Origin: a virus
Virus record (IMG/VR): IMGVR_UViG_3300028030_000036
Span: 1 to 36,591 of that record
Strand: one strand, 5' to 3'
DNA: 36,591 nucleotides
Part shown: piece after piece, positions 2,423 to 32,460 of the stretch
Layout of the letters: the number at the start of each line of letters is the position of its first letter
How positions within the stretch are numbered: the stretch's first letter is position 1
Notes under the pieces: model-generated
What the model was told of the DNA's origin: nothing
What the model saw: the letters and a program-made list of their open reading frames with translations, nothing else
The model's database searches: none
Translations under genes and position numbers: made by a program

Positions 2423-3800
2423 GATAGCCATACCGCACAATTGGACAGCGAGACCGCATCAATCAAATTTTATGCGCGCAATGCTCGTAGACGAAATGAA
2501 GCGTGCTCTCTGTGTTTGGCACAGGCGCGCAGGAAAAGATTCAGCCTCCCTTAATTTCACGGCAATTGAAACACAGCGAAACCCAGCTACATATTGGCAC
2601 ATGTTGCCCACAGCAATTCAAGCCCGTCATGTTGTTTGGGATGCAATAGACCCGCGCACTGGGGTAAGGATTATCGATCAAGCCTTCCCAAAGGAAATTC
2701 GCGCCGGAATCAACAACACAGAAATGAAAATCGAATTCAAAAACGGTGCTATTTGGCACTGTGTCGGAAGTGATAACTACGATCGATTGGTAGGGGCAAA
2801 CCCGCGAGGGGTAGTGTTCTCTGAGTATTCCTTGTCTGACCCACGGGCATGGGATTACATTCGCCCCATCCTTCTTGAAAATGATGGATGGGCGCTTTTT
2901 ATTTACACATTTCGCGGCAAAAATCATGGATATGACTTGAGCGAAATGGCCAAGAAGAATCCAAAGTGGTTCTGTGAAATACTTGATATCGAGCATACAT
3001 TCCGCGATCAGGAATGTACTCAGCCAATAATCACAAAGGAAATGTATCAGGAAGAAATCGATTCTGGCATGGACCCGCAATTGGCGTTGCAGGAGTATTA
3101 TTGTAGCGCAGATGCTGGTCTTTTTGGGGCATACTACACCGAGCAGTTAAAGCTCGCAAAAATAGGAGATTATCCATGGAATCCTTCGAAACCCGTCCAT
3201 ACATTCTGGGATATTGGACTCCACGACGATACAGCAATTTGGTTCGGCCAGGAGTCAGAGAGCAATTCGGATCTTATCAATATCATCGATTATGAAGCAG
3301 GCCCAAATATCGATTTCATAAAGTGGATTGGTCGGTTGAAAAATAAGCCCTATACCTATGGTGTGCATTCTATGCCACACGATTTCAAGAAGCGTGACTG
3401 GAAGGATGGAAAATCTGCCCAGTCTGTGGCCGATAAATTCAATTTCGAAATCGAACTTACTCCGAATATACCCGTCAAACAAGGAATAGATGCGGTTAAA
3501 GCATTCCTGCCTCGATGCCGGTTCGACAACAATCCTGACGTAATGCGCGGGTGGGACTCTTTGTCTAATTACCGAAGGGAATACAATGATAAGCTGAAGA
3601 TATTTCTTGATCGCCCGGCCCACGATTGGACTTCACACGGGGCTGATGGGTTCAGGTACATGTCAATAGCATGGCCAGAGAATTATGTGGCCTCCACCTT
3701 CGATTATACAGTGGAAACTGCTATAGGCGGACACGTGAACAGCCTAAACAGCCAATCAGCTATGCAAAGAATGATGGCGCAAATGGGACCGGTACAATGA
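2415..3800 (+). CDS. terL: Terminase large subunit (ATPase-nuclease)
   Basis: This motor protein pumps DNA into the prohead and cuts it. The 461-aa protein has a Walker A-like HRRAGKD at residues 36-42 and a Walker B region VVFSEYS (133-139) with catalytic Glu137. A coupling motif follows (IYTFRGKNHG, about 163-172), then an RNase H-like nuclease domain beginning at FWDIGLHDDT, with Asp266 as a metal ligand candidate and further acids near Asp323 and in HGADGF. The ATG at 2415 overlaps the small-subunit stop. A TTG at 2397 in the same frame would add six residues and is less likely. Placement between small subunit and portal is standard for tailed phages. Confidence 0.93.
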   Translation: MPEIAIPHNWTARPHQSNFMRAMLVDEMKRALCVWHRRAGKDSASLNFTAIETQRNPATYWHMLPTAIQARHVVWDAIDPRTGVRIIDQAFPKEIRAGINNTEMKIEFKNGAIWHCVGSDNYDRLVGANPRGVVFSEYSLSDPRAWDYIRPILLENDGWALFIYTFRGKNHGYDLSEMAKKNPKWFCEILDIEHTFRDQECTQPIITKEMYQEEIDSGMDPQLALQEYYCSADAGLFGAYYTEQLKLAKIGDYPWNPSKPVHTFWDIGLHDDTAIWFGQESESNSDLINIIDYEAGPNIDFIKWIGRLKNKPYTYGVHSMPHDFKKRDWKDGKSAQSVADKFNFEIELTPNIPVKQGIDAVKAFLPRCRFDNNPDVMRGWDSLSNYRREYNDKLKIFLDRPAHDWTSHGADGFRYMSIAWPENYVASTFDYTVETAIGGHVNSLNSQSAMQRMMAQMGPVQ

Positions 3801-5434
3801 CGCCATTTCAAATAAAAAATAAGTACGTCACATTAAAAGCGGACAGATCTGCGCTCGAATCCTTATGGGATCTGATCGAGCAGTTTGTTATGCCATTTCG
3901 TGGCGAATTCTTTTCGTCATCAAACGGCGAACAATCCGTTGATTGGAGAAAACGCAAGCTTTATGATTCTACTGCAGTGATGGCTGCCCAGAATCTCGCA
4001 GCTGCTATTCAGTCTAATTTAATCAACCCATCTACCCGATGGTTCGATTTAAAATTCAGATCAAACGATCTTATGTCGAATGATGAAGCAAGGGAATGGC
4101 TTGAAGAGTGCGCCTCGATTATCTATTACACCCTTAACGAGTCAAACTTTAACAGGGAAGCTTCTGAATCCATACTTGATATGGTGGGATTCGGTACTAC
4201 TGTAATCAACGAAGAAACAAAAGAGCTGGATAATGGCGGATTGCGATTGGATTTTTCGTCTATGCCAATATCAGAAGTGGTTTTTGAAGAAGATTCCGAT
4301 GGTGGCCTTGTTGCAGTGTATCGCGAGCTTAACTGGACTGCCCTGCAGATAATTGACAAATGGGGCGATGATAACCCTCTGATCCCGCAAAAAGTTAGAG
4401 ACAAACTGGGAACGGATGACGAAGGGAAGGACAAATTTAAGATAATTTTCTGTATTCATAAGCGCGATACTGATGCAGATTTGACTAAGAAGGTTTTGGC
4501 TGCAAAACTCCGTCCGTATGCTTCTCGGTACATATTCTTCGATGACCCGGCAGACTTGGCGGAAGAGGGTGGGTATTATGAAATGCCATCATTCATTCCC
4601 CGCTGGAGGAAGACATCTGGGTCAAAATGGGGGCATAGCCCGTCTGCTGTTGCTCTTGCCGACATCCTCACTGTTAATGAGTTGGTGGAAGTTGTTCTTG
4701 AGAATGCTGCTAAGGCAGTAGACCCTGCCACATTCGTGACTAAAAAGGGACTTTTATCGACGTTGAAGCTTGGCCGAGGCGGTCTTACTGTAGTACGTAG
4801 CAAGGATGATATTTGGGAATACAATACATCAGCCAGATTTGATGTCGGTGCTTTGGAAATCAAGCGGCTACAAGATCAAATCAACAAAGCATTTTATGTA
4901 GACCAGTTGGATTTAAAAGATTCTCCCGCAATGACCGCTACGGAAGCACAAATCAGGTATGAATTGATCCAACGTCTTGTTGGCCCAACGTTGAGTAGAT
5001 TCCAAACTGATTGGTTGAACCCCTGTATATCCCGAACTTTTGGAATTTTGTACCGATCTGATATGCTGCCTGAACCGCCGCAAGTCGTAAAGGACGCTCA
5101 GGCCCAATTTGATATCGAGTATACCGGCCCAATGGCCCGAAGCCATAAACGTGAAATAGCGATATCAATCCAGAATTGGCTGCAAACGTTATCGGAAGTA
5201 TCCGGTGTGCTGCCTGAAGTAATTGATGTTCCTGACCCGGATAAGGTGGCTACTAAACTTGGTATTCTTGGGGGTGTTCCGGCTGATATCATGAGAAGTG
5301 ATACGGAAATATCGGAAATTAGAGACGAAAGAAGAAAAGCACAGGACGCTCAAGCACAAGCTGAAATGGATAAGATGAAGTCAGAAGCGGCTATGAACAA
5401 TGCAAACGCAGATAAGGTGTCAAATGGACAATAG
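3797..5434 (+). CDS. Portal (head-tail connector) protein, T7 gp8-like
   Basis: This is the dodecameric ring at the DNA-entry vertex, which nucleates head assembly and docks the tail. The start at 3797 forms an ATGA overlap with the terminase stop; a longer frame to 3671 would lie inside the terminase gene. The 545-aa protein matches the podovirus head-to-tail connector pattern: an N-terminal helical part with LESLWDLIEQFVMP, a conserved DSTAVMAAQNLAAAIQSNL block near residue 55, central TATEAQIRYE, and a charged coiled-coil tail rich in Lys, Glu and Gln. Length agrees with the T7 gp8 family (about 535 aa). Confidence 0.9.
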   Translation: MTPFQIKNKYVTLKADRSALESLWDLIEQFVMPFRGEFFSSSNGEQSVDWRKRKLYDSTAVMAAQNLAAAIQSNLINPSTRWFDLKFRSNDLMSNDEAREWLEECASIIYYTLNESNFNREASESILDMVGFGTTVINEETKELDNGGLRLDFSSMPISEVVFEEDSDGGLVAVYRELNWTALQIIDKWGDDNPLIPQKVRDKLGTDDEGKDKFKIIFCIHKRDTDADLTKKVLAAKLRPYASRYIFFDDPADLAEEGGYYEMPSFIPRWRKTSGSKWGHSPSAVALADILTVNELVEVVLENAAKAVDPATFVTKKGLLSTLKLGRGGLTVVRSKDDIWEYNTSARFDVGALEIKRLQDQINKAFYVDQLDLKDSPAMTATEAQIRYELIQRLVGPTLSRFQTDWLNPCISRTFGILYRSDMLPEPPQVVKDAQAQFDIEYTGPMARSHKREIAISIQNWLQTLSEVSGVLPEVIDVPDPDKVATKLGILGGVPADIMRSDTEISEIRDERRKAQDAQAQAEMDKMKSEAAMNNANADKVSNGQ

Positions 5435-6521: not shown

Positions 6522-7430
6522 ATGCCAATTTCAATTTCAAATGAGTACATCGAAACGTTCCAAAATAACGTTATCCATCTGGCTCAGCAAAAGCAATCCA
6601 AGCTGCGTCAGTACATCATGGAAGTCAACAAGCAATCCGAAGCCCATAACTGGAATCGTCTGGATGCTTCTGTTGCCCGTGACAAGACCAGTCCCCGTAT
6701 GGTTTCCCCTGCTGGCGGCAATGGGTCCGGTGCAGTAGGCTCGACCGACGGTCTTGATTGGACTGTGCGAAAGTCTCTTATTAAAACCATCGATACTGGT
6801 GAAGTGGTTGAGCGATCTGATATCGCGCAGACTCTCATTGATCCGAAGTCGAATGTGACTATGAATCTAGTCGCTAATATGAACCGGAAAATCGACGATA
6901 TCATCATTTCTGCGGCAAATGATCCTTCCCGCGATGGCTCTGGCTCTTCTGTTGCACTCCCGGCAGCCCAGCAAATGGGGTCGGCCACCGATATCATCAG
7001 CATCGACACTCTGCTAGAAGCTCAGGAAATCTTCGCCGCTGCGGATGTCGATCCAGATGAAAACAAAGTGCTGGTCATCGGACCGAAGCAACAGCGTGTT
7101 CTCATGAGCCTGCTGCAGGTCCAATCGAGTGATTTTCAGAGTTCAAAGGCTCTGGCCACTGGTTTCTTGCCGAATTTCATGGGCTATGACATCATCGTGT
7201 CGAATCGTTTGGGCAACACAACTACTCCGCCTACTGCCGGTGAGATTTATTGCCTGGCTTTCACGAAACAGGCAATTGGTTTGCACGTGGCCCGCAACAT
7301 GAGTCCGGTTGCTGCCGAACGTCCTGATATGTCCTTTGCGTGGCAATGTTACGTGGATATGGACTTGGGTGCGGTGCGCGTTGAAGATGAACATTTCGTT
7401 CAGATCCATCTGAAAGACGCTCTGGCGTAA
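6522..7430 (+). CDS. Major capsid protein
   Basis: This is the main shell subunit, expected to have the HK97-type fold. The 302-aa protein starts after AGGAAAAAG and follows the scaffold gene. The N-terminal part (EYIETFQNNVIHLAQQKQSK) and the central GLDWTVRKSLIKTIDTGEVV and KIDDIIISAANDP blocks are typical of the phage capsid family seen in many non-T7 podoviruses. A C-terminal VDMDLGAVRVEDEHFVQI closes the domain. A perfect 32-bp palindrome follows 15 bases after the stop and may set its mRNA stability or limit readthrough, which fits the need for many copies. Confidence 0.88.
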   Translation: MPISISNEYIETFQNNVIHLAQQKQSKLRQYIMEVNKQSEAHNWNRLDASVARDKTSPRMVSPAGGNGSGAVGSTDGLDWTVRKSLIKTIDTGEVVERSDIAQTLIDPKSNVTMNLVANMNRKIDDIIISAANDPSRDGSGSSVALPAAQQMGSATDIISIDTLLEAQEIFAAADVDPDENKVLVIGPKQQRVLMSLLQVQSSDFQSSKALATGFLPNFMGYDIIVSNRLGNTTTPPTAGEIYCLAFTKQAIGLHVARNMSPVAAERPDMSFAWQCYVDMDLGAVRVEDEHFVQIHLKDALA

Positions 7431-22000: not shown

Positions 22001-22194
22001 CGCAAGTCATTGTCCGATAATCCAAGCTCAAATTGCTGAGCTTGGATGCTTTCAGTTTCTCTCACTATATTGTTTATTGATGCGTGAAGTTTAGGGTTGT
22101 CACCAAGCCTTCTTGTTTTTTGAAGCTTGGTAGTCATTTCCTTTACCGCAAGTCTTATGATCTTCAATTCCAAGTTTAAATTTTTATTTGACAT
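21997..22194 (-). CDS. Small hypothetical protein, 65 aa
   Basis: The family is not recognised. The sequence is helical and charged (NLELKIIRLAVKEMTTKLQK, then RETESIQAQQFELGL), possibly a small dimeric helical protein. AAGGAATATT precedes the ATG, and the start overlaps the end of the nuclease gene by 11 bases, so it is probably co-translated with it. It is the last gene of the leftward replication operon. Its stop overlaps the tailspike stop on the opposite strand by 3 bases. Confidence 0.65.
   Translation of the reverse strand: MSNKNLNLELKIIRLAVKEMTTKLQKTRRLGDNPKLHASINNIVRETESIQAQQFELGLSDNDLR
22021..22046 (+). terminator. Candidate terminator of the late operon
   Basis: TCCAAGCTCA and TGAGCTTGGA form a perfect 10-bp stem with a 6-base loop, 21 bases after the tailspike stop. 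The following bases TGCTTTCAGTTTCTCTC are T-rich but interrupted, so termination may be partial. The element lies inside the convergent 65-aa gene on the other strand. Confidence 0.5.
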
Positions 22195-22624
22195 AATATT
22201 CCTTCCAATGTTTAATTGCTGCGATTATTTTGTCTGACATATAATTGTCACGGCATTTTGCTTCTTTTAGCCAGAACCAGTATTCTCGGCAATCGCTTAG
22301 TTGTTCAATTTTGCTGCCATCGTGCAAGAAGTAGATGTCTACGTCTCCTTCAACTAACTTCGTAATCAGAATTACCGTTCCACCAGCTCTTACTCTGTTG
22401 TTACACCACCTTACTTGAGTTCCTCTTATTTCAGGCATTTTGCTTTTCGAACTTAACTTTTTATACTTCCCATATTTCAGCTCAAGGTGGCCTTCTTCTC
22501 CCCCTAAAAAACAATAATCCACATCTGGTATTCCAGCACTTGTAGCGTGCGATTCCACTCTGCTGGCATGCCATTGACCTGATAAACGAGAACTAAGCTC
22601 AAGCCATAAGTTTCTCTCAGACAT
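22184..22624 (-). CDS. VRR-NUC-type endonuclease
   Basis: This is a PD-(D/E)XK nuclease. The 146-aa protein starts at ATG 22624 with GGAGATTT upstream; a longer frame would enter the datZ gene. The catalytic signature is visible: GIPDVDY (catalytic Asp, about residue 33) followed by GHLELKYGK (Glu and Lys of ExK, about residues 47-49), the classical VRR-NUC arrangement, after an N-terminal helix NLWLELSSRLS. VRR-NUC proteins cut branched or flapped DNA such as Holliday junctions. It overlaps datZ by 8 bases, so it is expressed with the Z-genome genes; it may resolve replication intermediates or degrade host DNA. Confidence 0.8.
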   Translation of the reverse strand: MSERNLWLELSSRLSGQWHASRVESHATSAGIPDVDYCFLGGEEGHLELKYGKYKKLSSKSKMPEIRGTQVRWCNNRVRAGGTVILITKLVEGDVDIYFLHDGSKIEQLSDCREYWFWLKEAKCRDNYMSDKIIAAIKHWKEYYVK

Positions 22625-23123
22625 CGTAAATCTCCGTTTCAAACTCACCAAAATCCATCATGGAAATAACATTCTCAGTGGCAAGGTAGGCTTCCGGATG
22701 CTGCTGCGACATAGCTTCCAGGAATTGATTTAGTTTTCTTCTTGTGTACTCGGCTACCTGCTGCCCATGCCGATCAACTTGATTATATTTGATGAAGTTG
22801 TTGGCGTCAATCAAATCAGCTGCTTTGACTATTACTTGTTCTACAATAGAGCACTTATTTTTCGATTTCCCACCATACACATTGGATTTAATTCCCAATC
22901 TCGATTTAGCGGGCGAGGGTATGTCGCCCGTCATAACTTCATCTAAATCATGGTCTAATGCATACTTAATCACAAAAGTATCATCGATTTGCATTTCTGC
23001 ACAAATCGCTCTCGCTATCATCGACACATTAAATAAATGCTCAGCGAGAGACTGGTCTTTCACCGTAGCCACAATTGTCCACCGCTTTATTGTTTGTGAA
23101 AGCAATATGTCGTTTATGTTCAT
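22617..23123 (-). CDS. datZ: DatZ, HD-domain dATP triphosphohydrolase
   Basis: DatZ removes triphosphate from dATP, clearing adenine from the dNTP pool so that Z is used in its place. The 168-aa protein has the HD metal site in full: His29 in QSLAEHLFNV, His58-Asp59 in ALDHDLDEV, and Asp103 in KAADLID. The TGDIPSP block right after the HD pair and the N-terminal TIKRW are features of DatZ and related 5'-nucleotidase-like HD proteins. Alone this could be a general deoxynucleotidase, but adjacency to mazZ (4-base overlap) and purZ makes DatZ the best call. The start is preceded by GGAGCAG. Confidence 0.88.
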   Translation of the reverse strand: MNINDILLSQTIKRWTIVATVKDQSLAEHLFNVSMIARAICAEMQIDDTFVIKYALDHDLDEVMTGDIPSPAKSRLGIKSNVYGGKSKNKCSIVEQVIVKAADLIDANNFIKYNQVDRHGQQVAEYTRRKLNQFLEAMSQQHPEAYLATENVISMMDFGEFETEIYDV

Positions 23124-23377
23124 TTTCTGCTCCTGTACTTATTTAACTGTTGCTGAACCAAGGCCAGTAAGAAATTTTGCACATCGGCTGCTTCTTCGAT
23201 AATGTGGATCATGTCTTGGTCACTTAACGCTTCTGACAGCTCTTCCAACTCGTTGTCCAGAGCAGACATAATCGATTGATGCGCTGCGTCTTCAATTTTT
23301 CCTTTATGATTGTTCATAGCCATCTTTACTTCAGCCATTGAATTAAGAATTTCCGCCGCCTCTTTGTATTTGTTCAT
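23120..23377 (-). CDS. mazZ: MazZ, MazG-like (d)GTP pyrophosphatase
   Basis: MazZ converts (d)GTP to (d)GMP, feeding PurZ with dGMP. The 85-aa protein has the all-alpha NTP pyrophosphatase signature: the ELEELSE helix (residues 43-49, first Glu cluster) and IIEEAADVQNF (59-69, with Glu61, Glu62 and Asp65 as magnesium ligands). The ATG at 23377 shares one base with the purZ stop (TAATG), and the stop overlaps datZ (ATGA). A longer frame would enter purZ. Family length (about 85-110 aa) fits. Alternatives such as a generic MazG are less likely given the neighbours. Confidence 0.85.
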   Translation of the reverse strand: MNKYKEAAEILNSMAEVKMAMNNHKGKIEDAAHQSIMSALDNELEELSEALSDQDMIHIIEEAADVQNFLLALVQQQLNKYRSRK

Positions 23378-24390
23378 TACACTTCTTCCACGTCTTTTTG
23401 AGCCGGACCCCATCCCATATATCTTATTCTGTCTGGGTAATTGAATCGTATTTCCAATGCTTTATTTTTATCGTAATTACAAAAATTTAGAAAAATTTCA
23501 TCCGGCTGCGTTTCCCAGATAGCATCATTCATCTGCCTGTACGAAAAACCAAACACTCGCCGTTCTCTTTGTGTTACGGTTGTAAGTTCCGGAATTTGGC
23601 CCACCTTCTGCCAAGTTAATTCTTCTTGGTCGTCATAGCACCCGCCAGAAGTACCGCCTACCCTTATTGGATGCACCCTCGCTACGCCAATCACTTTGGT
23701 CAGCATAGGTAATGGAATCATCATGTCAGACATAAATCGAGCGGGGGTACACTCCCGACTTGTGGCGTATGGCCAAAAAGGCTGATTGATTCCTAAGCTA
23801 TATCCTTGTGCACCTTCCAACAGAATTCTTCGAGCACAACTGATTATCATCCTGTAATCTTCGTGGGACACGACTTCAACTCTTCCTTCAGTCAGCACTT
23901 CGTCGGCTTTCTTTGGTATTATGTCCTTATAGTTTCTAGCCAAGCAATGCCCAGGATCTGTTCTTCTGTTTATTTTCTCAATCATGGCAGCTGCAGACCC
24001 CTGCTTCGTGCTACCAATTGTGTGCAAGTGATCCTCTCCGTTAATATGCCTTGGAAGAAGAACGCAAGCGTTAGGGTGTATGGCTACCCTAAATCCACTA
24101 TACCCCAAACTATCGAGGTGGTCTAACTCGGCTATGAGCCTTTCAACACTAAAAACAGCGCCCGGCCCGATAACAGCCCACTCGCAGCTTGGTGACACTA
24201 CTCCGTTGGGCAATACCTTATGCACCATTTTCTGGTCTTTGCTGTCGATGTAGGTATGCCCCGCATTGGGCATATTTGCCGTGACACATACATCATAGCC
24301 TTCTTTTTCGGCTAAGTATCCGGCGATTAGCCCTTTCCCTGTAGATCCGTATTGCAGATCGATTATCATATCAGCTTTCTTCGTGTTCAT
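23377..24390 (-). CDS. purZ: PurZ, phage N6-succino-2-amino-dAMP synthase
   Basis: PurZ joins aspartate to dGMP, giving 2-amino-deoxyadenylosuccinate, which host PurB turns into dZMP. The 337-aa protein is of the adenylosuccinate synthetase fold, but shorter than bacterial PurA (about 430 aa). The P-loop reads QYGSTGKG (residues 13-20) where PurA has QWGDEGKG. The catalytic Asp is thus replaced by Ser16, the diagnostic PurZ substitution. Other family blocks are LLEGAQGYSLG, ANMPNAGHTY and RVGGTSGG. It directly follows the PrimPol gene by 1 base and overlaps mazZ, forming one operon of dZ synthesis genes. Confidence 0.95.
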   Translation of the reverse strand: MNTKKADMIIDLQYGSTGKGLIAGYLAEKEGYDVCVTANMPNAGHTYIDSKDQKMVHKVLPNGVVSPSCEWAVIGPGAVFSVERLIAELDHLDSLGYSGFRVAIHPNACVLLPRHINGEDHLHTIGSTKQGSAAAMIEKINRRTDPGHCLARNYKDIIPKKADEVLTEGRVEVVSHEDYRMIISCARRILLEGAQGYSLGINQPFWPYATSRECTPARFMSDMMIPLPMLTKVIGVARVHPIRVGGTSGGCYDDQEELTWQKVGQIPELTTVTQRERRVFGFSYRQMNDAIWETQPDEIFLNFCNYDKNKALEIRFNYPDRIRYMGWGPAQKDVEEV

Positions 24391-24391
24391 A

Positions 24392-26653
24392 TTATTTACC
24401 TTTTTTCATTGGATTGTCGTCAATAATTGCGCCAGGAATTATTTTATTTATCTTGGCGATTCCTACTTTTATGCTTGGTATCTCATAAACTCTTTGTCTT
24501 CGCTTATTTATAGTAGGTCTAGTTGCCTTTATTCCGTAATCAGTAACTTTCTTAGCAAAAACGTTTTCTATTACTGGCCTTTCTCTCCGTACAGAGGCGT
24601 ATTCCTCATACGCCTCATAAAGTCCTATTTTGCTGACAATAGATGGCCACCCTACATTTTCATCTTCTTTGAGGTCAATGACCGGAATCTTTTCGGAAAT
24701 TAGACACTTTCTCCACCACTGAAATACAGTATCCCCCTGAGTGTTCAACATTCTTTGATCCGACAGTCCTTTTGTCTCGGGGGCTACCCTCAAATCGTTT
24801 GTTATCTCCCGGTTTAGTAATTCATATAGTATAGCAGACTTTCCGCCATTCTTCAACTCATTAAGAATGGCGTTAAAATACTTCCTATCCCCGCACCGTT
24901 CACCGGACACGTCCAATACGAACCATCTTCTAGACCCGGCTCCGGCTGGGATGACCCAATCACTGTTGGAAGCTATGAACACGTGGATCATGTTCCTGTA
25001 TAATAAAGCATCAACGCCTTTCCTTTCTCCTACAAGATTCCTTTCAGTCACCATTCCTTTTAACTTTCCTGCTGTTTTCTTGTTTCCTCCCCATGTTATT
25101 TCATCCGCAAACACGGTGATGGCGTCAAGCAAATGAGCATTAAAGTTCGACGTCAGATGCGTATCGTCTATTAGGTGTCTATGGTGAGGACCGAATAGCT
25201 CACCTATTGTATTAGCTAGAAGTCCCTTACCAGACCCCTCTGGTCCTCTCATTACTACTGCACATCCTTTTGGGTTAGCTGGGTCTTGGACCAAATCGGC
25301 CAACCAGTCTAGTATCCACTCATACAGATCATCGTTGTTGTCGCATAGCACATTCTTAATGTGACTAAAGAATAAATTACACTTTCCTTTCTCAGGTTTT
25401 ACTGAGAACCCGTTCCATGTGTTAAAGTATCCTTCCGGGACTCTGCCATCAGGGAACAAAGAAATTCCATTAATATATGTTCGCCTTCCTTCGTGACCTA
25501 GCCAAACGTCGGCTATTCCCACTCTTTTTGTTTTTCCGCCCACCTTAACTAGGACTGTTTGATTCTGCAGCAAAGTTTTGAACGATTCTTTATCTAGTAG
25601 TTGATAGTGCATATCTGTGTCGCACACTATTTCTCGCTCGGCCAATATTCTTATTTTTCCCCCTATAGATACTACGGCATAAGTCTCGTTCATCTTAGCC
25701 ACTACTTCATCGAAAGAGTTTCCTTTTGCGTCGTGATTTTCTATTTTCCACCCACCTTCTCTAGCGTAAAAGAATAGAGTACCAGCTCTCACGTTACCTA
25801 AATCATCGAACCCTTCCCATCTTATGTAGCATTCCCCGGGTGAATATCTCTCTCCCTTTTTTGACCAGTTGTCCCACAACTCAAGCCCTTCATCGTTATT
25901 CTGCTGAGATTTTATGGCCATCCCTACTTTCAGCCATTTATCATAATCACATTCATTTGGATCTATGAATGTCAACATTTTCTCTATTTGGTCTACTGGG
26001 ACTGCTTCATTGACATCATCCGATGTTACTTGCTCGTTTCCTCTGTTCGATGCAGGAGGATTCCAATGTACCCCTAGTAGATCAGTCATCCATTTCGGTA
26101 TATCTGGTATTGCTTCAGGCCAACTCTTCCACTCGTACATTTTTCCTTCAACAATAGAGGGGAATGCCACTATATGCCCTTTTGAACTAGTTTCCGTTCC
26201 TCCTCTTGTGTCAACACATTTAGCAATCTTATTGGTGGAAGAAGAAGCGTTTTCTTGCCATTTAAATAGCAAGTGGAGTCCATCATTTGGAGTAACTTGG
26301 GTGGGGCATACAGGAAATTCTTCACCCGCTCTTTCGAGTTGCCTCTCGAAGTTTAACAACCCGTCTTCCCCGCCATGCCTGTCTATATCGACAGCAAACA
26401 CTCCTCCCTTTATACCGCATGCTATCCCTATATTCCAGCCAGGGAATCTGCCTTCTTCCGGATGAAACCATTTTGTTATAACCCTTTTGCTTTTTGATGC
26501 GTTTGAATATGACACATTAAATTCTTTAGCCGGGAGTCTTTTTCCGTTCTTTACCAGCGGCAAAACCCTTATGTCCTGATCTATGTACCACAGGGCAGCT
26601 TCGTAAACCTTCCACTCTTGTGATGGGTGCTTCATTATGTCTGCTATTTCCAC
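24392..26653 (-). CDS. Primase-polymerase fused to SF3-type helicase
   Basis: This protein makes primers and unwinds DNA at the fork. The 753-aa product starts at GTG 26653, two bases after the polymerase stop, with AAGGGG upstream; a longer frame would enter the polymerase gene. Order of domains: PrimPol (about residues 20-180) with GIACGIKGGVFAVDID, catalytic Asp89 and Asp91, and GLHLLFKW; a PriCT-2-like helical linker (about 220-300, DYDKWLKVGMAIKSQ); and a D5/SF3-type ATPase with Walker A GPEGSGKG (470-477), Walker B FADE (Asp517, Glu518) and an arginine pair GSRRW near 575. In S-2L a PrimPol is the main Z-DNA polymerase, so this enzyme probably tolerates Z. Confidence 0.9.
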   Translation of the reverse strand: MEIADIMKHPSQEWKVYEAALWYIDQDIRVLPLVKNGKRLPAKEFNVSYSNASKSKRVITKWFHPEEGRFPGWNIGIACGIKGGVFAVDIDRHGGEDGLLNFERQLERAGEEFPVCPTQVTPNDGLHLLFKWQENASSSTNKIAKCVDTRGGTETSSKGHIVAFPSIVEGKMYEWKSWPEAIPDIPKWMTDLLGVHWNPPASNRGNEQVTSDDVNEAVPVDQIEKMLTFIDPNECDYDKWLKVGMAIKSQQNNDEGLELWDNWSKKGERYSPGECYIRWEGFDDLGNVRAGTLFFYAREGGWKIENHDAKGNSFDEVVAKMNETYAVVSIGGKIRILAEREIVCDTDMHYQLLDKESFKTLLQNQTVLVKVGGKTKRVGIADVWLGHEGRRTYINGISLFPDGRVPEGYFNTWNGFSVKPEKGKCNLFFSHIKNVLCDNNDDLYEWILDWLADLVQDPANPKGCAVVMRGPEGSGKGLLANTIGELFGPHHRHLIDDTHLTSNFNAHLLDAITVFADEITWGGNKKTAGKLKGMVTERNLVGERKGVDALLYRNMIHVFIASNSDWVIPAGAGSRRWFVLDVSGERCGDRKYFNAILNELKNGGKSAILYELLNREITNDLRVAPETKGLSDQRMLNTQGDTVFQWWRKCLISEKIPVIDLKEDENVGWPSIVSKIGLYEAYEEYASVRRERPVIENVFAKKVTDYGIKATRPTINKRRQRVYEIPSIKVGIAKINKIIPGAIIDDNPMKKGK

Positions 26654-26655
26654 TT

Positions 26656-28500
26656 TTAACCCCTTGTATTGTCTACTTTCTGTAATGCTTCGTGCCAATT
26701 TCTTCCTGCACCGTTCCAATCTAGCTTTAACGGCACACGAACCCTTCCTTCTTCTTCTATTCTCCTTTTTACTCTATTATAATACGGCTTCCAATCTTCC
26801 GGTAAGCTCATTGAATATGAGTCATGGGTATTCAATATAAGCCTTCCCTCTTCTCCCAGTTCTTCTTCTATTATCTTCCAATTTTCTTTATTTAAATCTG
26901 CCGATGTTGCTTGTATCAATAAGCCGGATGCCTTGTAAGATTTATATCCCCTAGGGAATCTTAGCCTGCGACCTGCTGTTTTTGTGAATATGAATCCTCT
27001 GTCCTCTGCTACCTTTTTGCATCCGTTTGCTAATTCTTTTATTCCAGGTATCCTTTGATGATACCTGTTTATTACCTCTAACGCTTCTTTCCCAGCTTTC
27101 TTATACCTTATGAGTTTGCCGTCTTTTGCTGTAAACTCGTCCCATGCCCATTCCATGCCCATTTTATCGGCTATCGCCCCGTTCCCCGAATTAAATATCA
27201 TAGATAAATTCAGTTGCTTTGCATTCGGTTGGCCAGAATAGGTTGCATTTCTGACTAGTCCCGTAAGAGAAGCAACAAATTCGTGGAAATCTAGGTCTGA
27301 GTTTTCTTTAAAGGCTGCAATGATTTCTGGGTTATTAACAAGATGGGCGAAAACCCGTACTTCGAATGAAGCCATGTCCCCATCAACCCATACTTGACCG
27401 ACGTCGGGTAAGAAAGCTGGCTTGATTATCGCAGCTTTTTCTTTGTTTCTGCTTGGAATTTGCTGCATGGCAGGGTCGTTATAACTAAGCCTTCCAGTGC
27501 CAGTTCCTACTCCCTCGTCACCCTTTGATTGATTTATGCTGGGGTACACTCTATCCTTTATTGCATGTTCAAGAACATGCTTTCCTAGGAATGTATCCCG
27601 CATCTTCATAGTGGACCTTAATTCTAATATGCATTTAGCCGCTGGGTGGTTCATTTCTCTCAAAACATCTGCGTTTATAGATGGCCCTCCTTTTGGAGTA
27701 GTTCCTATTGCCACACCATCCTTTGTCTCCCACACTCCGTCTGATACCTCTACGGGGGAGAACATCTTTTTGATTTGAGGAGAGGAATTTACATTTATAT
27801 TACTTCCAGCCCATTCATCCAAGGTTTTTTGCTCTTTTTCTATTAAGGGAGTAAGCTTGTCCATAGCCTTCTCTGCGTAGTCTAGATCTACTCTTATGCC
27901 CTTCATTTCATTTCTTATGAACGTCGGCATAAGACTAAGCTCAAATTCTACTATTTGCTGTATTCCTTGCCTTTCTATTTCTTCCTGCTGCCATTCCCAC
28001 AGAGCCAATGTGCCTCTTGTGTCCATCTTGGCGTAAGGAGCTACCACTTCGGATGGTGCTTTGTGTATTCTTCCTATTTGAACATTCCTAGTCGGCAGGC
28101 CACCAAATAAATCAGCCATTTTTTGGTATATCGTCGTATCTTTCTCCATCCCCATGTACTTTTTAAGAAGGTCATCTAGTTGATAACTAAACAAATGCTC
28201 GTTTATTTGGCACGCTATTATTACGGTATCTTGGCAATTAACAAGAGGGATGTGGATTCCTGTGTAATCTGACATTTTCACATCAAAACTGGCATTGTGC
28301 ATAATTTTTATGCCATCGTAATGCCTTAACTCATCATTTATCCAGTCAACCGCTTTTGGAGTTTCTCTTATGTCATAGTAGTAGTCTTTGCCATCTGGCG
28401 TACTAAGGCTGAACCCAAAAACCTTATCCGCCCTATACTTTAACCCAGTTGTTTCGGTGTCGTAGGACAGATAAGGAAATTTGTGTAAATCAGGGAACAT
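26656..28500 (-). CDS. dpoZ: Family A DNA polymerase with proofreading domain, DpoZ-like
   Basis: This is the replicative polymerase. The 614-aa protein has an intact 3'-5' exonuclease: Exo I YDTETTG (Asp14, Glu16), Exo II HNASFD (68-73), Exo III YAKMD (156-160). The polymerase palm has motif A GDMASFEVR with catalytic Asp375 (the usual form is DYSQIELR), motif B AKQLNLSMIFNSG (from 427), and motif C THDSYSM with Asp560. The residue after that Asp is Ser where most family A enzymes have Glu. DpoZ enzymes of Z-genome phages prefer dZTP over dATP, helped by their exonuclease. The DpoZ name rests on linkage to purZ, not on a residue known to set preference. The start overlaps the preceding stop (TAATG). 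Confidence 0.85.
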   Translation of the reverse strand: MFPDLHKFPYLSYDTETTGLKYRADKVFGFSLSTPDGKDYYYDIRETPKAVDWINDELRHYDGIKIMHNASFDVKMSDYTGIHIPLVNCQDTVIIACQINEHLFSYQLDDLLKKYMGMEKDTTIYQKMADLFGGLPTRNVQIGRIHKAPSEVVAPYAKMDTRGTLALWEWQQEEIERQGIQQIVEFELSLMPTFIRNEMKGIRVDLDYAEKAMDKLTPLIEKEQKTLDEWAGSNINVNSSPQIKKMFSPVEVSDGVWETKDGVAIGTTPKGGPSINADVLREMNHPAAKCILELRSTMKMRDTFLGKHVLEHAIKDRVYPSINQSKGDEGVGTGTGRLSYNDPAMQQIPSRNKEKAAIIKPAFLPDVGQVWVDGDMASFEVRVFAHLVNNPEIIAAFKENSDLDFHEFVASLTGLVRNATYSGQPNAKQLNLSMIFNSGNGAIADKMGMEWAWDEFTAKDGKLIRYKKAGKEALEVINRYHQRIPGIKELANGCKKVAEDRGFIFTKTAGRRLRFPRGYKSYKASGLLIQATSADLNKENWKIIEEELGEEGRLILNTHDSYSMSLPEDWKPYYNRVKRRIEEEGRVRVPLKLDWNGAGRNWHEALQKVDNTRG

Positions 28501-30446: not shown

Positions 30447-30781
30447 GGTGCAGAGTATGTATGACAGAATCTGCATACAAACCGATCTTCTGATGGGATG
30501 TAATTCATATTGTTGCCGCAGCACGATGGGGCTTTTTGCTCTGCTTCCTTTGCTGCTTCAATGCTTTTGTTGGTCCACACACTCCTTGAATTTTTGAATG
30601 GATGGTTGCTTTTGGGCTTCGTTTTTCTAGCGTAATTTACTTGTTCTGTTATGGCCCTTTTTACGCTATACCCTCTTCGCATTCTTGAAGTAAAACAAGA
30701 CAGGGACAAATCTGGTAGTGGTGATTTTGCCACCCAATATCTAGCAGGGTAGCCATCATACAATTTTCCTGTGAAACTCAT
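30410..30781 (-). CDS. Putative zinc-binding protein, 123 aa
   Basis: The ATG overlaps the helicase stop (ATGA), so it is co-translated with the helicase. The N-terminal half is basic (MRRGYSVKRAITEQVNYARK). The C-terminal half has SCCGNNM and, 12 residues later, CRFC, which can form a four-cysteine zinc ribbon. Small zinc-ribbon proteins next to helicases often bind DNA. The end of the gene carries the box and -35 of promoter P3, so its coding sequence is under double constraint. The family is not recognised. Confidence 0.65.
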   Translation of the reverse strand: MSFTGKLYDGYPARYWVAKSPLPDLSLSCFTSRMRRGYSVKRAITEQVNYARKTKPKSNHPFKNSRSVWTNKSIEAAKEAEQKAPSCCGNNMNYIPSEDRFVCRFCHTYSAPYRPSGDRIKEG

Positions 30782-32460
30782 GACATTTGCTCCATTACGA
30801 AATCCGCAATCGACTTTTTATCTCGCAGAGCTTTATTAATCTGCTTATCGATTTTATGGTTCATGGTTAGGTTAACATACAAACAAGGGTGCTTTTGGCC
30901 CTTGCGCCACGGGCGACGTTCGCTTTGTTCACGCTGAGTGTAACTAAACGAGTTAGAATAATAAAATGCCACAGTGGCTGCAGTAAGGGTTAGCCCTTTG
31001 CTTCCTATCTGCTGTGAAGTTATAAACGCCGTAACCTGAGGATCAGTTTGAAATTTTTCCATCATATCATACTTTTCTTGGCTGCTTAATCCAGCACCAA
31101 GGTGGACGTAAGTTCCGGGCCGATTTTTCTCGAACCATTTAACTATGTCTTCTCTTTCACGCGAGAACCTGGCCCAAATTATAAACTTACGCTTACTATC
31201 CAATTTTTCTACCTGTTCAATGAGGGCGTCCATCTTGGGATTTTTTCCTGCTATCTTAGTAATCCCATGCTTTGGATCCGACTTTCTCGCCATCGATAAT
31301 TCTTCAGGAGTAAGATCATATGGGAAGTACCCCCCAGTCACTTGCTGGTAACGGGTCATTCTTTCAAGGACTGTTTCAACTTCTATTACTCGATCATCCT
31401 GTGATGCTGTCATCATTTTGCTGGCCATATCATTGAGAATTTTCTTCTGTTCTGATGTAGGCTCAACAATAACCTCTTCATACAAACGTTTGGGCATATC
31501 CTCGACATCAGTAATTTTCACTGTGTACACATAAGGTTCAATTCTTTTAAATAAATCCTTAAGGTTATTGTATCCCACTATTTTGCGCCCTTCAAACCCG
31601 CCCATAACGCAATACCGGTTCTTGAACACAGTATAGTTTTTTACACCGATAATGGACCAGTCAAGGAATCTGAATTGGGAGAACAAATTTTCAACTCCTT
31701 CATCTACAGGAGTGCCATTGAGAATCGACCTGTATTTACACAGCCCGCCCAGTTCCCAGCAAATTTTTGTTCGCTTTGTTGACGGATTTTTTATCGACGA
31801 CGATTCGTCAATAGTCATATATGTTGCGTGTTTTAAAACGAACAGATTAGCTATTTGTTTTGCGTACGGCCCAGTAGACAAAGACTCTACTCCTACCACT
31901 AAAACCTTTAACCGATCACTTGTTTTATTAATCCACTTCTCTGCGTTTTTAGCTGCCCCTGACTCCATTATAAAGATATCATAATCAATAGGACAATGCT
32001 CTTCAAATTCTTTCATCCAAACAGGCTTAATGCCAGTGTCGCATACTATGAGCATGCCGTTTATTTCGCCCATCATAGCCTTTGCTGCGGCAAAATTAAT
32101 CGCTGTGAAAGACTTGCCAGTTCCCATATCCATTATATAGGCAAATGCTTCCTTAACAAAAGACTTATTAAGTGCTTCGCGCTGGCATTTCATGGGGGAA
32201 TTTTTAAACTTGTACCACGACGGGAATGGTAGCCTATTCTTGTCCCCGTCCAGAAGCTCATTTATTTTTTTCATAGCTTCCGGCTCGATGTCACTAGAAT
32301 CAACAACATCGTAAAAATATTTTGCGTTTGCCAGTGTTACAGGCGCTTCCCACTGCTTGTTCTTTACTACCCACTTTCTATCTGGGATAGCTTTTGCTAA
32401 GTGGTTTTCCCAAAATTCACATTTAAATATGAACGCGTTTCCTTCTTTTAATAATCTCAT
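30778..32460 (-). CDS. SNF2/DEAD-like SF2 helicase
   Basis: The 560-aa ATPase has all SF2 motifs: a Q/N-terminal region with CQREAL, motif I MDMGTGKS (112-117), motif Ia LIVCDTGIKPVW, motif II DESS (218-221), motif III LNGTP (247-251), motif V QQIGSKGLTLT and motif VI QREQSERRPWRKGQ (509-522). The QSxxRxxRxGQ form of motif VI is typical of SNF2 proteins. Many purZ podoviruses carry such a helicase; a role in replication, recombination or displacement of host proteins is likely. The protein is preceded by tandem terminators, so its transcription probably depends on readthrough from P4. Confidence 0.88.
   Translation of the reverse strand: MRLLKEGNAFIFKCEFWENHLAKAIPDRKWVVKNKQWEAPVTLANAKYFYDVVDSSDIEPEAMKKINELLDGDKNRLPFPSWYKFKNSPMKCQREALNKSFVKEAFAYIMDMGTGKSFTAINFAAAKAMMGEINGMLIVCDTGIKPVWMKEFEEHCPIDYDIFIMESGAAKNAEKWINKTSDRLKVLVVGVESLSTGPYAKQIANLFVLKHATYMTIDESSSIKNPSTKRTKICWELGGLCKYRSILNGTPVDEGVENLFSQFRFLDWSIIGVKNYTVFKNRYCVMGGFEGRKIVGYNNLKDLFKRIEPYVYTVKITDVEDMPKRLYEEVIVEPTSEQKKILNDMASKMMTASQDDRVIEVETVLERMTRYQQVTGGYFPYDLTPEELSMARKSDPKHGITKIAGKNPKMDALIEQVEKLDSKRKFIIWARFSREREDIVKWFEKNRPGTYVHLGAGLSSQEKYDMMEKFQTDPQVTAFITSQQIGSKGLTLTAATVAFYYSNSFSYTQREQSERRPWRKGQKHPCLYVNLTMNHKIDKQINKALRDKKSIADFVMEQMS

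Follow-up and report, generated by a model that had tools for sequence, protein, structure and literature searches.

The stretch of DNA analysed here (the window) comprises 36,591 nt and corresponds to contig C103 of the binned draft genome G000. Its minus strand carries a replication module with the gene order DpoZ-primase-purZ-mazZ-datZ-nuclease, and the structural genes lie on the opposite strand, as in Vibrio phage phiVC8 and Alteromonas phage ZP6. An earlier note had placed a purZ-mazZ-datZ cassette at 22617–24390, and the three genes are present there, on the minus strand, with overlaps of 1 and 4 bases, as follows. The PurZ stop codon, TAA at 23379–23377, shares one base with the MazZ ATG at 23377 (TAATG), and the MazZ end at 23120 and the DatZ start at 23123 leave four bases in common. 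The first ATG of the mazZ frame is at 23413, giving a longer ORF; the ATG at 23377 agrees better with the relatives.

Table 1. Predicted features of the window
Feature	Coordinates	Strand	Description	Basis
portal / head-tail adaptor	3671..5434	+		PHROG 332, E 5e-117; identity 45% phiVC8, 40% ZP6
major capsid protein	6522..7430	+		PHROG 3437, E 1.5e-61; identity 43% ZP6, 36% phiVC8
small gene after datZ	22184..22651	-	counterpart of ZP6 VRR-type nuclease / phiVC8 p23	PHROG 2165, E 1e-16; 26–32% identity, equivalent position
datZ	22617..23123	-	HD-domain, predicted dATP triphosphohydrolase, 168 aa	PHROG 7076, E 2e-26; S-2L DatZ structure 6zpa, E 4e-8
mazZ (MazZ-2 type)	23120..23377	-	predicted dGTP pyrophosphohydrolase giving dGMP to PurZ	PHROG 9860, E 9e-24; PF01503/PF03819, weakly
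purZ	23377..24390	-	predicted succino-amino-deoxyadenylate synthase, 337 aa	NCBIfam, PDB, residues, tree
primase-helicase	24392..26719	-	Prim-Pol, PriCT-2, DUF5906; between dpoZ and purZ	Pfam; 45% identity to phiVC8 primase, equivalent position
dpoZ	26656..28500	-	family A DNA polymerase with 3'-5' exonuclease, Z-selective type, 614 aa	NCBIfam, PDB, residues
SNF2-type helicase	30778..32460	-	in the same replication module as the cassette	PF00176; 41% identity to phiVC8 helicase

The note had also called the cassette complete. That description suits its three genes, and the set is larger than was recognised, with DpoZ, a primase and a nuclease flanking it; the fourth part that had been overlooked is the Z-type family A polymerase at 26656–28500. 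Chance matches are excluded for the predicted cassette genes because the E-values are 1.7e-96 for PurZ in NCBIfam, above the curated cut-off, and 2e-26 and 9e-24 for DatZ and MazZ in PHROG. The gene set had been described as known from Z phages, and indeed the identical cassette order has been published for phiVC8 and ZP6 and recurs often in IMG/VR. The primase of the module is 42–45% identical to those of these two phages.

The capsid gene marks the contig as a phage of the phiVC8/ZP6 kind, to judge from its predicted product. No exact terminal repeat of at least 15 bases occurs in the contig. When 25 kb of the window were compared with phage records by megablast, no DNA-level match was obtained. 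A 41-base stretch of the datZ region, searched for exactly, likewise gave no match in IMG/VR, so that neither the window's own record nor near copies were found in this way.

Active-site residues of the cassette enzymes and DpoZ

The window PurZ belongs to the PF00709 family in Pfam, a membership that would also suit an ordinary PurA-like adenylosuccinate synthetase, carried as an auxiliary gene beside neighbours present by coincidence. The profile evidence argues against such a reading. The NCBIfam PurZ model, NF038379, gives 322.9 bits (cut-off 300), whereas the best PurA models reach 99 bits against a cut-off of 396. The best matches in the PDB are to phiVC8 PurZ (6fm1, E 2e-108) and S-2L PurZ (7odx, E 3e-54), with PurA at E 1e-19 or weaker, and the identity is 52.9% to phiVC8, 50.4% to ZP6 and 37% to S-2L. 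The replacement of the P-loop Asp by Ser that the earlier note had pointed out is borne out by alignment: Ser16, in QYGSTGKG, falls at S-2L Ser23 and phiVC8 Ser14, the site of catalytic Asp13 in PurA. A normal PurA is encoded elsewhere in the bin, on contig C542, and has Asp14 at the equivalent position. Together with the tree described below, the models reject the PurA-like reading, which we consider scarcely credible.

The residues of the S-2L PurZ pocket, like the catalytic residues of DatZ and MazZ, have been defined previously (PMC8342488, PMC8065100). In the window PurZ, the residues of the dGMP, Asp and ATP pockets are as in phiVC8: S16, N42-T46, T128, R142, Q195, R243-V244, T270-T273, R277, N302-F303 and N305. 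Three of the positions checked differ from S-2L. One Cys is replaced by Ala209, the loop position of S-2L R244 is a gap, and S-2L Q308 is replaced by Asn, the latter two as in phiVC8.

Residue-by-residue comparison with the S-2L enzymes confirms that DatZ has full metal ligands and that MazZ has both Glu motifs, as had been claimed. The DatZ residues matching S-2L are R14, W15, I17, H29, H58, D59, E62, D67, P71, K73, K100 and D103. They include the HD metal ligands, the phosphate-binding R, K and K (S-2L R19, K81 and K116) and the sugar and base readers W15, I17 and P71 (S-2L W20, I22 and P79); the identity to phiVC8 DatZ is 38%. In MazZ, the metal acids E43, E46, E62 and D65 are all conserved, as is R84 (S-2L R83). 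The protein is 48% identical to that of phiVC8 and 54% to that of ZP6, with the genes in an equivalent place, and it fits the phiVC8-like MazZ-2 profile rather than the S-2L-like MazZ-1; it also has the position expected of MazZ-2, between purZ and datZ. MazZ-2 is recognised through conservation, and its base-reading residues are unlike those of S-2L MazZ (PMC8342488); its preference for dGTP is therefore a prediction.

The polymerase scores 880.8 bits with the DpoZ model NF038380 (cut-off 500) and matches the phiVC8 DpoZ structure 7pbk at E 7e-219. It is 54% identical to phiVC8 DpoZ and 55% to that of ZP6. Residues L432, F436, G526 and S561 occupy the positions of phiVC8 L455, F459, G548 and S583, and insertions 1–3 of the phiVC8 enzyme are present. 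According to the authors of the phiVC8 study, no single residue explains the Z preference of its DpoZ (PMC8599892); the diagnostic residues are thus evidence of family and not proof of selectivity.

No sign of decay or loss of function of the cassette is seen in the window. The four reading frames are intact, and all checked catalytic residues are retained at about 50% divergence from the relatives, which indicates purifying selection; decay is accordingly a most improbable explanation.

PurZ phylogeny and related loci

A phylogeny of PurZ against PurA had been set beforehand as a refuting test. In the maximum-likelihood tree of 59 rows, the window falls in the PurZ clade, and PurA is split from all PurZ and PurZ0 sequences with support of 100/100. 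The window PurZ pairs with IMG/VR locus L032 (100/97), within a clade of 28 rows that contains the window, phiVC8, Vibrio K300 and ZP6 (100/96). The surrounding clade of 38 rows (98/95) holds phiVC8, SH-Ab 15497 and S-2L, the three phages with a worked-out Z pathway, and the window PurZ lies outside the PurZ0 clade. Long branches lead to L021, L023 and PurZ0, and the placement of the window is unaffected by them. The synthetase of L019 (LR756503, a 735-kb phage) was rejected as a PurZ; its loop, QYGDEGKG, contains Asp, and the protein lies with PurA in the tree.

An alignment query was required to find the relatives in IMG/VR: a scan with the single PurZ protein returned only two remote ones, and the alignment query yielded 362 stretches that encode a relative of PurZ. 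Among the best 80 of these 362, which were kept, most loci with enough flank show DpoZ on the upstream side and a match to MazZ and/or DatZ on the downstream side. L022, L024, L025, L027, L028 and L051 carry PurZ-like genes with no DpoZ, MazZ or DatZ match in the fetched flank, and these may be lone PurZ homologues. In Vibrio phage K300 (L008:8032-8188), the interval between purZ and datZ is unannotated, yet a profile search finds a MazZ-2 frame there; the annotation therefore misses a gene. Among the 96 genomes of its taxonomic neighbourhood, the window alone passes the PurZ cut-off, as expected, since the contig in the bin is that of a phage.

A second, divergent Z cassette lies at L006:10080-14149, on contig C631 (45,444 bp) of the same bin. 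It comprises a polymerase with 511 bits (DpoZ cut-off 500), an SSB, a PurZ-like protein that falls short of the cut-off (206 against 300 bits), a MazG-like protein and an HD protein. The PurZ-like protein (L006:12494-13444) is 100% identical to that of IMG/VR locus L029, IMGVR_UViG_3300028030_000021. Its NAGHT motif has Gly in place of the catalytic His, the sole case in 104 aligned homologues, and its P-loop reads GKR, not GKG; the DNA frame is open, so a simple frameshift is not the cause. In a 17-kb stretch of C631 (L006), there are no CGCG sites, and the observed/expected ratio of CTAG is 0.31. Two different Z-DNA phages, those of C103 and C631, might share one bacterial host lineage, the C631 phage having an altered chemistry or another source of dZTP, but we regard this as unlikely; the more probable causes are an error of binning or decay of the gene.

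A predicted 2-aminoadenine genome and its relatives

The presence and order of the genes, the families of their products and the active-site residues are established. The proposed pathway would proceed as follows. MazZ would convert dGTP to dGMP, and PurZ would use dGMP and aspartate, with ATP spent, to form succino-amino-dAMP (dSMP). Host PurB and kinases would then convert dSMP to dZTP. DatZ would remove dATP, and DpoZ would favour dZTP over dATP opposite T. The purB and gmk products are the kind of host enzymes that complete dZTP synthesis for phiVC8. Both genes are present in bin G000 (443 and 245 bits, respectively), which may not be the true host, so that the genes are perhaps not the host's.

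A different role for the cassette deserves consideration. Its enzymes might only remodel the host nucleotide pool, by turning over dGMP and dATP or by acting, through MazG, on the stringent response, with Z incorporated partly or not at all. Expression of the S-2L cluster in E. coli yields only partial substitution (PMC8342488), and a (p)ppGpp role has been proposed for the MazG gene of ZP6 (PMC8515928). Set against this are the Z-type polymerase that sits with the cluster, the Ser of PurZ where PurA has Asp, and the retention in DatZ of I17 (S-2L I22), the residue that spares dZTP. These three features are coherent only if Z is used, which argues against pool remodelling, and we judge that explanation improbable.

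A genome with 2-aminoadenine is therefore the prediction that we favour. The contig has the complete known gene set for replacing adenine by 2-aminoadenine, with the four proteins that mark phiVC8-type Z phages, and, by analogy with the relatives, it is very likely that this set leads to adenine-free DNA. We infer complete replacement of A, the activities of the enzymes and protection from restriction enzymes from the characterised relatives; the expected restriction resistance rests on the literature on S-2L and phiVC8, whose biochemistry is described in PMC8342488, PMC8599892 and PMC8065100. With high probability, then, the window would represent the near-complete genome of a podovirus akin to phiVC8 and ZP6 in which adenine is replaced by 2-aminoadenine (Z). 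It adds a well-formed, distant member, at about 50–55% protein identity, to the phiVC8/ZP6 phages with non-standard DNA. The new member leaves the known Z pathway unchanged; it should be of use in comparisons of PurZ, DatZ, MazZ-2 and DpoZ and in gauging the frequency of Z genomes.

Four known systems can be compared with the window. The PurZ0 phages of Arthrobacter, Gordonia and Microbacterium likewise have a PurZ-like synthetase whose loop contains Ser, but they form a separate clade in the tree. No DatZ or MazZ match adjoins PurZ0 in the PurZ0 loci examined, and these phages have the DutZ/DmtZ system instead (PMC12884076). The cluster of cyanophage S-2L, datZ-mazZ-purZ, encodes these three enzymes too, and its PurZ and DatZ share their catalytic residues with the window proteins; unlike the window, S-2L has MazZ-1, and a PrimPol in place of DpoZ (PMC8342488, PMC8065100).

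The Z-DNA podovirus phiVC8, an Enhodamvirus, shares with the window the order DpoZ, primase, PurZ, MazZ-2, DatZ and nuclease, and they have the portal, the capsid and a 754-aa virion protein in common. The tailspike and early genes differ, as do the G+C content (51% in phiVC8, 44% in the window) and the observed/expected ratio of GATC, which is mildly low in the window (0.71) and 0.02 in phiVC8 (L004). GATC is also nearly missing in L043 (0.04) and rare in ZP6 (L005; 0.23). This scarcity in phiVC8, L043 and ZP6 occurs despite the protection that Z-DNA is believed to have; MutH or Dam biology is a possible cause.

ZP6, a Mareflavirus, resembles the window in the cassette and its flanks, but most structural proteins are less than 45% identical, a distance of roughly genus level. 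Judged by its predicted proteins, the window phage is an ordinary, convincing and previously unlisted member of the phiVC8/ZP6 group and a distant new species; by protein identity its novelty is about that of a new genus, as an estimate and not a formal classification.
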